Below, piece by piece: positions 38,159 to 42,815 of a DNA stretch of 64,000 nucleotides; the first letter of the stretch is position 1, and each line of letters starts with the position of its first letter. The notes beneath the pieces are model-generated. The model searched no databases. It was not told the DNA's origin and saw nothing but the letters and a program-made list of their open reading frames with translations. The stretch covers positions 1 through 64,000 of the forward strand of contig JAICUI010000009.1 of assembly GCA_025935925.1 (NCBI GenBank), read 5' to 3'. Both the position numbers and the translations under genes were made by a program. This DNA comes from Chloroflexota bacterium (GTDB lineage: Bacteria > Chloroflexota > Limnocylindria > Limnocylindrales > CSP1-4).

Positions 38159-38953
38159 ATGCTGCGGCAGGTCGCCGAGGGCGTGCTGGTCCACGAGAGC
38201 GAGTTCCTCCAGAGCAATGCCGTGGTCCTGCTCGGGCCGGCCGGGGTGCTGGTCATCGATCCCGGTGTGCGGGAGCCGGAAGTCGTCGCCCTCGCCGATG
38301 CCCTCCTCGAGCTCGGCCACCCGGTGGTCGCCGGCTTCTCGACCCACCCACACTGGGACCACGTGCTGTGGCACGAGCGGCTGGGCGCCGCGCCGCGCTA
38401 CGGGACGGCCGGCGCCGCGGAGGCGATGGCCGCGCTGCTGTCGGACGCCGGCTGGACCGACCGGCTCGCGCGGGTGGTGCCGCCCGACGTCCTCCGCGAG
38501 CTGCCGCTCGACGGCTTCGGCCGCATCACGGGGCTGTCGCCGGGTGCCACGGAGGTGCCGTGGGACGGCCCGCGCGTCCGGGTGATCGAGCATCGGGGTC
38601 ACGCGCAGGGCCACGCCGCCCTCCTCGTCGAGGAGCCGCGCGTGCTCATCGCCGGGGACATGCTGTCGGACACCCTGATCCCGATCCTCGACGCCGGCGC
38701 GGCCGACTCGATCGCGGACTCCCTGGCCGCGCTCGGCCGGCTCGAGGCCGCGGCGGACGATGCGGACGTGGTCGTCCCCGGCCACGGGTCCGTCGGCGAT
38801 CGCGATGAGGTCCGGGCACGGATCGACCGCGACCGGGCGTACCTGCTCGCGCTTCGCGAGGGCCGCGGCGATGACGACCCGCGGCTGGCCCCGTCCGCGG
38901 TGCACGGCGCGTGGCTCCCCGGCGTGCACGCACGCCAGGTCCCGGATCGCTAG
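38159..38953 (+). CDS. MBL-fold metallo-hydrolase
   Basis: VLVIDPGVREPEVVALADALLELGHPVVAGFSTHPHWDHVLWHERLG...IEHRGHAQGHAALLVEEPRVLIAGDMLSDTLIP. Confidence 0.9.
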   Translation: MLRQVAEGVLVHESEFLQSNAVVLLGPAGVLVIDPGVREPEVVALADALLELGHPVVAGFSTHPHWDHVLWHERLGAAPRYGTAGAAEAMAALLSDAGWTDRLARVVPPDVLRELPLDGFGRITGLSPGATEVPWDGPRVRVIEHRGHAQGHAALLVEEPRVLIAGDMLSDTLIPILDAGAADSIADSLAALGRLEAAADDADVVVPGHGSVGDRDEVRARIDRDRAYLLALREGRGDDDPRLAPSAVHGAWLPGVHARQVPDR

Positions 38954-40899
38954 TCGGCGGCCGTCGCCTTCTTCGTCCCCACGACGAGGACACCGTTGAC
39001 CGCCGGGTAGTTCGAGAAGTACCGCTTGCGCCAGTGCAGCTTGCCGTGGTCGTAGATGGACACGGTGACCCACACCTTGGCGCCATCCGCCGGTGCGTTG
39101 TTCCGGAACGCGTAGCCGACCGGTTTCGTCGGGTCCTTCACGGTCGTGTCGATCGCCCGCGGGCCGCGCTGGATCACGGTGTTGCTGACCTTCGCGGTCC
39201 GGCCGTTCGGGACGCTCCAGATCTTGAACGTCAGCCACCGGCGGCTGCCATCCTGGGTCACGGTCCGGGTGATCAGGATCGGGTACTTGGTGTCATTGCG
39301 GAAGCTCATCGTCTGCTTCGCCTTGCCGACGATCCACACCGTTGCGTCGAGGCCCGGCGGATACCGGTCGATGAACTCGTTGTGGTTCTGGCGCGCGAGC
39401 GGGATCATGCCGGCCCGGAACGCCGCGTTGAACAGCGTCGTCGACGTGGTGCAGATGCCGCCGCCGAACGCGCCCGTGACGGTGATCTTGCCGCCCTCGA
39501 TCGCATTCCCCGGACCGGCGCCCGGGAGGTCGTGCAGGTCGCCGACGGTCTTCCAGAAGTCGAACTTCGCGCCTGCGGGCACCACGGTGCCGTTGATCTT
39601 CGTCGCCGGGGCCTCGATGTTGCCGCCCCAGTGGTTGTTGACGATGACCCAGTAGAACACGCTGTACTTGCTGATCATCCGCATCTTCGGCGCGAACGCC
39701 TTGGCGTCCGCCGCGGTCAGCTTGGGCTGGACGGCCTTCACGACGGCCTCGACCGGCGCCGCGGCACCGCCCGCCTGGCGCGCCGCGATCGCGCTGACGA
39801 TCGAGGCCTTCATGCCGTCCGTGTTAAGCGTCCGGCCCTCGCGACTCGAGCCCGTCGCGACGACGTGGCCGCCGACGAGCTTCAGACCCGCGTCCCTGGC
39901 GATCTGATTGACCTGCTTGCCGAGCGACTTGAGGAGCGGATCGAGGCCCGACGCGTCGAAGACCGGGTTGATGGTGCCGTCGGCCGCGGTCGCGAACGAG
40001 ACGAGCGGCGCCAGCTTGGAGCCGGCGATGGTCCAGCTTTCCTTGCCCCTCGCGACGACGACGTCGGCCGCCATTCGAACCGCGGCCGCCTTCGCGGCCT
40101 CGACGGTCTCGGTCGACACGGAAGGTGCGATGGCCGCGACCGGCACCTCGGCCGCGATCGACGACGGCGTCTCGAGCGAGGCGAGCTGGCGGTCCAGCGC
40201 GTCGAGCAGGGCCGCCCTGTCGACCGCCCGGCCTTCGGTGGCGGGGGTCGTCGCGAACGTCCCCTGATCGGCCGACACGGTGGCGTCGACGGGCGCCTGG
40301 TCGATCGACGCCGCGAGCGCGTCGATGGCCGCCTCGAGCTTTCCACGGTCGTAGGCGACGGCGGAGTCGACGGTGACGCCGTGGATCGCGGCCTGCGGTG
40401 CGCCGATCAGATTCGCGATCGGCTCGCCCTCCCGACCCGCAGCGAACGCGGCAGCCACCATGGCCGCCATGTCCGGTCCGCGTCCGAGATCCGCGTAGCT
40501 GATGGTCGTCACGTGCCCGTCCGGGCCGGTGAGCGTCACCTGTCCCGCGCCCAGCGACCCGTAGGCACTCGTGAGCGCCGCCTCTGCCTGCTCGCGGTTG
40601 AGCCCGCCGAGGTCCGTGCTCCCGACGCGAACGCCGGGCAGGACGCGTCCCTCGTACTGCTGTCCCCAGGCGTACAGCGCGCCCGCGCCGATCGCGAGGG
40701 CGAGCACGGCCCCGAACACGAAGGCGATGCCGAAACGGAGGGCGAGCGACCGCCCGCGGCGACGCCTGGGCGGCTCGCCGCCGGGCACGACGGGAGTGAC
40801 GGGCAGGACCGGCACGGCGGCATCGCCGGCGGGCAGGTCGCCGTCGGGGGCGGATGCGGTGGCAGCGACGTCGGCGGCCGAGTTGGGCAAGTCGGTCAT
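38950..40899 (-). CDS. VanW family protein with N-terminal TM and peptidoglycan-binding-like repeats
   Basis: GRVLPGVRVGSTDLGGLNREQAEAALTSAYG...FDFWKTVGDLHDLPGAGPGNAIEGGKITVTGAFGGGICTTSTTLFNAAFRAGM...HNEFIDRYPPGLDATVW (VanW). Confidence 0.9.
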   Translation of the reverse strand: MTDLPNSAADVAATASAPDGDLPAGDAAVPVLPVTPVVPGGEPPRRRRGRSLALRFGIAFVFGAVLALAIGAGALYAWGQQYEGRVLPGVRVGSTDLGGLNREQAEAALTSAYGSLGAGQVTLTGPDGHVTTISYADLGRGPDMAAMVAAAFAAGREGEPIANLIGAPQAAIHGVTVDSAVAYDRGKLEAAIDALAASIDQAPVDATVSADQGTFATTPATEGRAVDRAALLDALDRQLASLETPSSIAAEVPVAAIAPSVSTETVEAAKAAAVRMAADVVVARGKESWTIAGSKLAPLVSFATAADGTINPVFDASGLDPLLKSLGKQVNQIARDAGLKLVGGHVVATGSSREGRTLNTDGMKASIVSAIAARQAGGAAAPVEAVVKAVQPKLTAADAKAFAPKMRMISKYSVFYWVIVNNHWGGNIEAPATKINGTVVPAGAKFDFWKTVGDLHDLPGAGPGNAIEGGKITVTGAFGGGICTTSTTLFNAAFRAGMIPLARQNHNEFIDRYPPGLDATVWIVGKAKQTMSFRNDTKYPILITRTVTQDGSRRWLTFKIWSVPNGRTAKVSNTVIQRGPRAIDTTVKDPTKPVGYAFRNNAPADGAKVWVTVSIYDHGKLHWRKRYFSNYPAVNGVLVVGTKKATAAD

Positions 40900-41194
40900 C
40901 AAAGGCTCTTACGCGGTTGGCCGGCGTCTGGACTCGTCCCCGGCAGCCGCGACATCTTCGCGTGTGCGCGCGATTTTGTCAGGCGGCCTCCGGCGGGCCG
41001 GCGCGTCTGGGACGCGGGACGGTGTCCGGACGTTGCGCGGGATCCGGCGACGCCGGCATCTCCCGCGCTCGATCACCGAAGGATACGTGCGATCGCGCGA
41101 CGCGCGGCCGGACGCCGGGTCGGCACGCCGTAGAACCGCCATCACAAACATGGGTGAACACCCGCTGTGATGAACGGCCTGCCGCGGGCAACGG

Positions 41195-41491: not shown

Positions 41492-41507
41492 GGCGGCTCC
41501 TTCGGGA

Positions 41508-41828
41508 TCAGGCCCGGTCCGATGCGACGTCGGCGACCTCGTCCGCGCTCAACGTCCCGACGCCCCGCCACTCGACGAGGATCGGCGCCTTGCCACGAGG
41601 CGCGGAGCCGGCGCCCACGAGCGCCATCCGACCCCGCACGAGCCGGCCATCCCGCATCCGTCCCGCGATCGTCCCGATGGCCGGCACGTCGCGCGATGGC
41701 ATCAGCACGCGGACGGACCAGCAGTTCGAACGGGTTGCGTCCTGCCAGACGTCGACGGTCGCCCCACCGACCGGCGCATCGTCGAACGTCACGTCCACGA
41801 GCGCGAAGCGCCGATGGTGGCGGATCAC
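41508..41828 (-). CDS. Hypothetical protein translationally coupled to the cold-shock gene
   Basis: VIRHHRRFALVDVTFDDAPVGGATVDVWQDATRSNCWSVRVLMPSRDVPAIGTIAGRMRDGRLVRGRMALVGAGSAPRGKAPILVEWRGVGTLS; GTGA overlap with cspA-like stop. Confidence 0.6.
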   Translation of the reverse strand: MIRHHRRFALVDVTFDDAPVGGATVDVWQDATRSNCWSVRVLMPSRDVPAIGTIAGRMRDGRLVRGRMALVGAGSAPRGKAPILVEWRGVGTLSADEVADVASDRA

Positions 41829-42034
41829 TGCGCCGCCGGCTCCACGTTCCTCGCCCGGGCGCCCTTCGGGTCCTGCTCGACCTCGAACTGCACCCGCTCT
41901 CCGCCGACGAGCCGCTCGAAGTCGAGGGTCGGTGCGACGGCGCTCCTGTGGAAGAAGTAGTCCTTGCCGTCGTCCGACGTGATGAACCCGAAGCCGCGCT
42001 CCGCGACGAGCTTCTTGACGATGCCGGTGGCCAA
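41825..42034 (-). CDS. Cold-shock domain protein (CspA family), probable TTG start
   Basis: (L)ATGIVKKLVAERGFGFITSDDGKDYFFHRSAVAPTLDFERLVGGERVQFEVEQDPKGARARNVEPAAQ; SD GGGAGG 7 nt upstream of TTG 42034. Confidence 0.9.
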   Translation of the reverse strand: MATGIVKKLVAERGFGFITSDDGKDYFFHRSAVAPTLDFERLVGGERVQFEVEQDPKGARARNVEPAAQ

Positions 42035-42089
42035 GGCACGCCTCCCGTGGTCTCGAACTGCGGGAGGCGGACATGCGGTCCGTTCGAGA
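42034..42089 (-). promoter_or_regulatory. Candidate SD-sequestering RNA switch in cold-shock gene 5' leader
   Basis: Minus transcript CTCTCGAACGGACCGCATGTCCGCCTCCCGCAGTTCGAGACCACGGGAGGCGTGCCTTGG: helix A TCTCGAAC/GTTCGAGA and helix B CGCCTCCCG/CGGGAGGCG (contains SD), mutually interlocking. Confidence 0.6.
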
Positions 42090-42335
42090 GGAGTGGCCGC
42101 ACGAGGGTCGCCACTGACGTGGCCCGCGAAGCGTACCACGCGCCGATCCCTCCACCGCCTCCGGCGCCCGGCCATCGCACCCGGCGCGCGGGCGGCCCGG
42201 GACGCCGCGGACACCAGCGCGCAACGCGGGACTGGTCCACCGTTTCGTTCGTGGCGGATGTTCGGCGCAGGATGACGTGATCAGCGTGCGCCAGCCGAGC
42301 GACGGCGTGAACGCGACCGAACCGCGAAAGGAGCC

Positions 42336-42815
42336 GTGACGATGACGAGCGCCACGAGCGGGCTGCCCCGAGAGCCATCGACCAACGACCCCGACGCGCG
42401 ACCCTCCGCGGTGGACCAGGTGCTGTCACCCCAGCACGAGCTCCAGGGATGGCAGGACGACACGTATCGGACGCTGCACCAGCACCCGGAGCTTGCGAAC
42501 GCCGAGGTCAAGACGTCCGCCGCGGCCGCGGTCGCGCTGCGTGACGCCGGGTACGAGGTGCACGACCATGTCGGACGACGGGAGTCGTCGGCATCCTGCG
42601 CAACGGCGACGGGCCGGTCGTGCTGATGCGCGCCGACATGGACGCGCTCCCGATGCGGGAGGAGACCGGTCTCGCGTACGCCAGCACGGACGAGCAGCCG
42701 GACGCCGACGGTCAGCTCGTGCCCGTGGCGCACGCGTGCGGGCATGACGTGCACGTCGTGAGCCTCATGGGCGCAGCGCGCCTGCTCGCGCAGGGCACCC
42801 GCGATACGTCGTGGT
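42336..42815 (+). pseudogene. M20 family amidohydrolase/peptidase remnant (1-nt frameshift and 3' truncation)
   Basis: Frame 1: LQGWQDDTYRTLHQHPELANAEVKTSAAAAVALRDAGYEVHDHVG; after about 42570 continues one frame over: (T)TGVVGILRNGDGPVVLMRADMDALPMREETGLAYAST...VAHACGHDVHVVSLMGAARLLAQGTRDT, then homology stops. Confidence 0.8.

Follow-up and report, generated by a model that had tools for sequence, protein, structure and literature searches.

In several branches of the Chloroflexota, comparison of upstream regions indicates that almost all cold-shock genes are preceded by an apparently undescribed leader RNA, which is predicted to form a 5′ hairpin (P0) and then an H-type pseudoknot whose 3′ stem ends just before the Shine-Dalgarno (SD) sequence. 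This element probably acts in cis to govern how translation of the cold-shock protein is initiated, and that protein most likely opens it. No description of the leader element was found in the open-access literature.

In the window, the whole stretch of 64,000 nucleotides analysed here, a sequence-only reading had proposed that a cold-shock gene is preceded by a structured cis-element in which two mutually exclusive helices, A and B, act as a bistable switch. The gene (41825..42034, minus strand; TTG start, 69 amino acids) does encode a cold-shock protein (PF00313, E = 2.1e-17), and it is the only cold-shock domain (CSD) gene found in the window's genome, where it is present in single copy. 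Downstream of the cold-shock gene region, a VanW/PG_binding_4 protein is encoded at 38950-40902, also on the minus strand. The SD, GGGAGG, was read from the sequence at 42041..42046 (minus strand), 6 nt upstream of the TTG at 42034. Further upstream lies an extended −10 promoter element, TGG-TACGCT (TGGTACGCT, 42130..42138, minus strand), whose TGnTAnnnT pattern recurs in almost all relatives, at an equal distance from P0/P1 on their upstream side. Because this conserved motif sits just upstream of P0, the 5′ end of the transcript is predicted to lie at P0, with the transcription start site (TSS) at about 42123 (±2), and this predicted position, upstream of both helices, favours the earlier reading on one point by which it could have failed.

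One relative (L038, genome G018) has, just upstream of the extended −10, a palindromic sequence, CGAACATCTGTTCG, that is similar to the LexA/SOS box of Gram-positive bacteria. It is degenerate in L007, L011, L032, L033 and L028, and several relatives carry GAACATnnGTGC at this site, where a transcriptional repressor may act in addition.

Both helices were confirmed on the minus strand. In helix A, TCTCGAAC (42089-42082) forms 8/8 Watson-Crick pairs with GTTCGAGA (42058-42051), and in helix B, CGCCTCCCG (42069-42061) forms 9/9 with CGGGAGGCG (42047-42039), covering the SD at 42046-42041; as simple hairpins the two cannot coexist, as had been claimed. What the earlier reading missed is a third helix, P1, in which CGTGCGGCC (42103-42095) makes 8/9 pairs with GACCGCATG (42080-42072). 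The partner of the helix A loop is this conserved upstream strand, and helix A, here termed P2, becomes half of an H-type pseudoknot. P0 is formed in the window (42110..42123) by GCCAC (42123-42119) and GTGGC (42114-42110) around a GTCA loop, the 3′ strand of P2 ends 4 nt before the SD, and the 13-nt pseudoknot loop L3 (42059..42071) holds the window-specific anti-SD strand of helix B. With a covariance model of P0 and P2 (R1), the window's leader scores as a divergent copy of the element (37 bits, E = 3e-6), and the third pair of its P1 is U-A, a two-sided change from the C-G of the family. The stability of the leader (141 nt) is ordinary for its composition (z = −0.73). This leader is also the sole copy in the genome, the next match (21 bits, C38) falling inside a coding sequence.

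For the comparison, cold-shock genes were found by protein search in 29 of the 61 genomes searched, the window's own included, and the regions upstream of them were examined together. A conserved leader RNA emerged in the relatives, bearing out the proposal of a structured element in this position, with the order P0, CGYGUGGUC, a short C-rich loop, CUUCUCGAAC, G, GACCGUGCG, a loop of 9-22 nt, GUUCGRGAAG, SD and start codon. The consensus of P2 is CUUCUCGAAC/GUUCGRGAAG and that of P1 is CGYGUGGUC/GACCGUGCG, which pairs across P2; the strands thus alternate as P1a-P2a-P1b-P2b, as they do in an H-type pseudoknot, and both stems are conserved (98.0% and 95.0% of cells paired in P1 and P2, respectively). 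P1 comprises 9 bp and P2 8-11 bp, with about 1 nt between the stems, and the lengths of the loops (L1, 3-13 nt; L3, 9-22 nt, median 12) can be accommodated by such a fold.

Across 36 aligned cold-shock leaders, P0, P1 and P2 together were paired in 90.4% of cells and showed 44 two-sided changes where shuffling gave 18.9, and sliding the helix partners cut the pairing to 35-51%. Most of the covariation comes from P0, which contributed 6 of the top 7 column pairs in an APC-corrected scan of all column pairs in 99 leaders. The high sequence conservation of P1 and P2 keeps the corresponding counts small. For P1 alone, over the 68 rows in which it was scored, two-sided changes occurred at 4 pairs where shuffles gave 1.0, and pairing never exceeded 69.6% when the strands were slid. 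Compensated variants are found in L025 and L038 (each A-U for G-C) and in L042 (C-G for U-A), L012 has a shifted nine-pair version, and in the distant clades P1 has been rewritten with bulges while keeping 8-10 pairs. The sequence of P2 is so conserved that its covariation is weak, and G-U pairs are frequent in both stems. On these comparative grounds the structure of P0 and P1 can be taken as demonstrated, and P2 as strongly supported by its conservation and by exchange between G-U and A-U pairs; we infer that P1 and P2 coexist instead of forming alternately.

The tie between this RNA and cold-shock genes is close. With R1, the leader was found in 95 of the 177 genomes of the class and, in several further families, in 66 of the 399 genomes of a phylum-wide sample; a model retrained on 99 leaders (R2) gives the distant leaders higher scores. 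Among the genomes listed for the window's family, the leader is present in 81 of 82 with a cold-shock gene, as against 4 of 25 without one. The cold-shock genes of another family of the class (f3) showed no convincing leader by the covariance models. A search of 85,462 species genomes with a strict DNA pattern gave at least 80 stretches, and among the matches listed every one came from a Chloroflexota or Dormibacterota MAG, apart from one that carries the label Bacillota (L158). R2 matched 83 times in these stretches, and among the matches listed 81 end directly before a cold-shock start codon, the remaining two preceding a degenerate cold-shock gene (L192) and a remnant-like frame (L191).

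Three individual loci may be recorded here. In L144 (G100:C442) two leaders point apart, one before a normal cold-shock gene and the other before an apparent remnant. L249 (G518:C93) has a CSD fused in frame to a further ~220 amino acids, possibly a thioredoxin/DsbA-like domain, which could be real or an assembly error. L130 (G037:C8), from a reduced genome in the same order, has a weak match (31.5 bits) upstream of a ClpC-like gene, and this match disappears with R2. The candidates L126, L131, L134, L143, L257 and L260-L266 were rejected as leaders, their scores being low and typical of background inside or beside other genes.

A few good matches do precede unrelated genes. Two lie before glycosyltransferase-like genes (L151, G033:C56, 56 bits; L138, G018:C69, 45 bits), and no cold-shock gene was detected in G033; leader-like elements also stand before short proteins with zinc-ribbon-like cysteine motifs (L135, L139, L140 and L141), which comprise two pairs of related genes from two genera. 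A purely autogenous element need not precede such genes, and these leaders count against one. They would fit with a ligand-binding riboswitch, in which the pseudoknot, with its conserved UUCUCGAA and GACCGUGCG strands, forms an aptamer by the SD as in the small translational riboswitches, and the H-type topology adjoining the SD and the high sequence conservation are likewise what such an RNA would display. However, the conserved residues are mostly paired, and the near-exclusive tie to one family of RNA-binding proteins favours protein feedback, so that we assign the riboswitch a low probability.

The best clue to the mechanism comes from the geometry relative to the SD. In all 97 leaders measured, the end of P2 lies −2 to 8 nt ahead of the SD, with a median of 4 in the class and 0 in the distant clades, and some of the distant leaders (L116 and its relatives) allow the P2 strand to continue over the SD. 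Comparison of the related leaders establishes the structure of the element, its association with cold-shock genes and its geometry beside the SD. A folded pseudoknot adjoining the SD would lie within the ribosome footprint. Translational control is proposed because P2 lies so near the SD in all of these leaders, and structured standby sites are a studied control point of initiation (PMC3936740). Furthermore, no terminator-like U run, as an intrinsic terminator or attenuator would have, follows P2 or helix B in the window or in the leaders of its relatives, which makes translation the likelier target. A DNA operator of the inverted-repeat type was considered and rejected, since the variable L3 spacing of 9-22 nt and the frequent G-U pairs in P1 and P2 speak for RNA. 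The tight distance between P2 and the SD is, in addition, not accounted for by mRNA stability alone. An element whose P0 and pseudoknot shield the 5′ end or determine decay, and hardly affect initiation, would explain why P0 starts at the predicted TSS and why its sequence varies freely while its pairs are kept, but we regard it as very improbable.

For translational control we envisage the following course. The folded pseudoknot, lying within the expected 30S footprint, would limit initiation, and opening of P2 would free the region before the SD. The opener would most likely be the cold-shock protein, a single-strand binder, acting on the pyrimidine-rich L1/P2 strand (consensus CCCCUUCUC) and so exerting autogenous control. 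We infer that control is exerted at translation, that the folded state corresponds to lower expression and that the protein is the effector. Two cold-shock leaders from the same genus (L027 and L028, in G007 and G008) keep P1 but have lost P2, and carry a CUCCC/GGGAG hairpin near the SD instead; this loss of P2 counts against the explanation that we prefer. In crude energy calculations, with no coaxial bonus and with the loops frozen, the combination of P1 and P2 comes out less stable than the nested ensemble by about 8 kcal/mol, which likewise counts against it.

In the window, helix B may constitute a second lock that uses L3, such that P1 with P2 would leave the SD open and P1 with helix B would bury it. 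As noted above, the earlier reading took helices A and B together as a compact functional device with SD sequestration. Helix A, the half of that proposal that stands, is stem P2, and its conservation throughout the phylum shows that it did not arise by chance. A regulatory role for helix B is not supported, for pairing between L3 and the SD is not conserved and the window is alone among 98 leaders in having helix B. When the L3-SD duplex was compared with shuffles of L3, leader by leader (n = 98), the window reached −20.6 kcal/mol with 9 contiguous pairs and the best of the 97 others −10.2 kcal/mol with 6 pairs, while in the median leader the pairing was no better than in shuffles (p 0.65). 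Helix B was accordingly discarded as a conserved feature. Pairing of the SD with L1 or P1, common in nested folds, was set aside as well, L1:SD pairing being no stronger on median than in shuffles.

Helix B, a GC helix of 9 bp lying over the SD, is nonetheless the best nested fold in the window. An uninterrupted run of 9 Watson-Crick pairs with the SD region arose in 0.4% of shuffles of the loop strand and in 1.3% of shuffles of the whole 82-nt leader; this chance of 0.4-1.3% is nominal, before allowing for the 64-kb scan in which helix B was first noticed. Two leaders of the same genus, L007 and L013, contain a weaker anti-SD, CCUCC, in the same loop (−9.3 kcal/mol), a weak hint in favour of the two-helix device. 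Against the two-helix device stand the lack of helix B in all other leaders, its excessive stability and the omission of P1 from the scheme, and together these make it an improbable account of the element. As a lineage-specific SD lock that competes with P2, helix B may be either functional or a product of chance, and its formation would need blocking by P2, the ribosome or a protein.

Sensing of temperature through melting finds no support. In the nested model, the SD with helix B stays closed from 5 to 55 °C (unpaired probability <0.001), and because of this helix B would not be a melting thermometer; an RNA thermometer acting by SD melting was rejected on this result. A sensor of the cspA type would work differently, with the pseudoknot as the cold, translation-competent fold and nested folds pairing the SD with L1 or L3 as the warm, closed state. 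Such a sensor would suit a cold-shock gene, and the E. coli cspA mRNA is an established two-fold thermosensor (PMC9947658, PMC4166951). It would also suit the distant clades, in which forcing the pseudoknot opens the SD (unpaired 0.61 versus 0.33); in the class, forcing it neither clearly opens nor clearly closes the SD (medians 0.31 and 0.30). Yet no temperature-dependent reversal appears between 5 and 55 °C in the nested model, and both L1:SD and L3:SD pairing are at the shuffled level on median. Nor is there an Rfam cspA match outside coding sequence: a search of 41500-42700 in the window gave no Rfam match to E = 5, and among the leaders of 16 relatives the only one was a sub-threshold match to RF01766 in L021 (29.6 bits against a gathering score of 78), which starts 15 nt upstream of the coding sequence and lies nearly all within it. 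A cspA-type sensor thus seems unlikely.

To our knowledge, the control of cold-shock genes outside the Proteobacteria and Firmicutes is largely unknown. The present element is a compact, phylum-level RNA, associated almost one-to-one with cold-shock genes; its stems are defined, compensatory variants of it occur in nature and its position by the SD is fixed. Although the organisms that carry it are known for the most part through metagenomes, it lends itself to tests as a short leader in a reporter. It thereby makes self-control by cold-shock proteins through RNA structure a testable question in another phylum. Returning to autogenous control, we tentatively suggest, as a broader reading that is rather less probable than not, that this RNA class is old within the Chloroflexota and that the cold-shock protein senses whether the pseudoknot next to its own SD is folded, the mRNA thereby reporting how much free RNA chaperone the cell contains; to this the window's species would have added a second SD lock in L3.

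Several known systems share parts of this arrangement. The preQ1 and SAM-II RNAs are small translational riboswitches with an H-type pseudoknot next to or including the SD, whereas the gene here encodes an RNA-binding protein and the element has no Rfam match. ROSE and fourU are RNA thermometers, and helix B of the window resembles them in burying the SD, but it is not conserved and, in the model, is too stable for melting at physiological temperatures. The translational operator of E. coli rpsO (S15), mentioned in PMC3014915, also contains a pseudoknot and serves an RNA-binding protein, although both protein and RNA differ and the start codon here lies outside the pseudoknot. The E. coli cspA thermosensor (RF01766) is likewise a structured 5′ leader of a cold-shock gene that acts on translation, and in the cold CspA promotes the translation of the mRNA that encodes it (PMC9947658); the topologies differ, however, the element described here being about 100 nt long and cspA a long fold that includes coding sequence. 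In phage T4, the single-strand binder gp32 controls itself via a leader pseudoknot, which is H-type as well, and protein feedback of this kind is proposed here; the T4 pseudoknot, however, is separated from the start by 67 nt that include an A+U-rich stretch (PMC3014915), while the present element abuts the SD. The parallels with cspA and gene 32 may serve as analogies for autogenous control of the Chloroflexota cold-shock genes.
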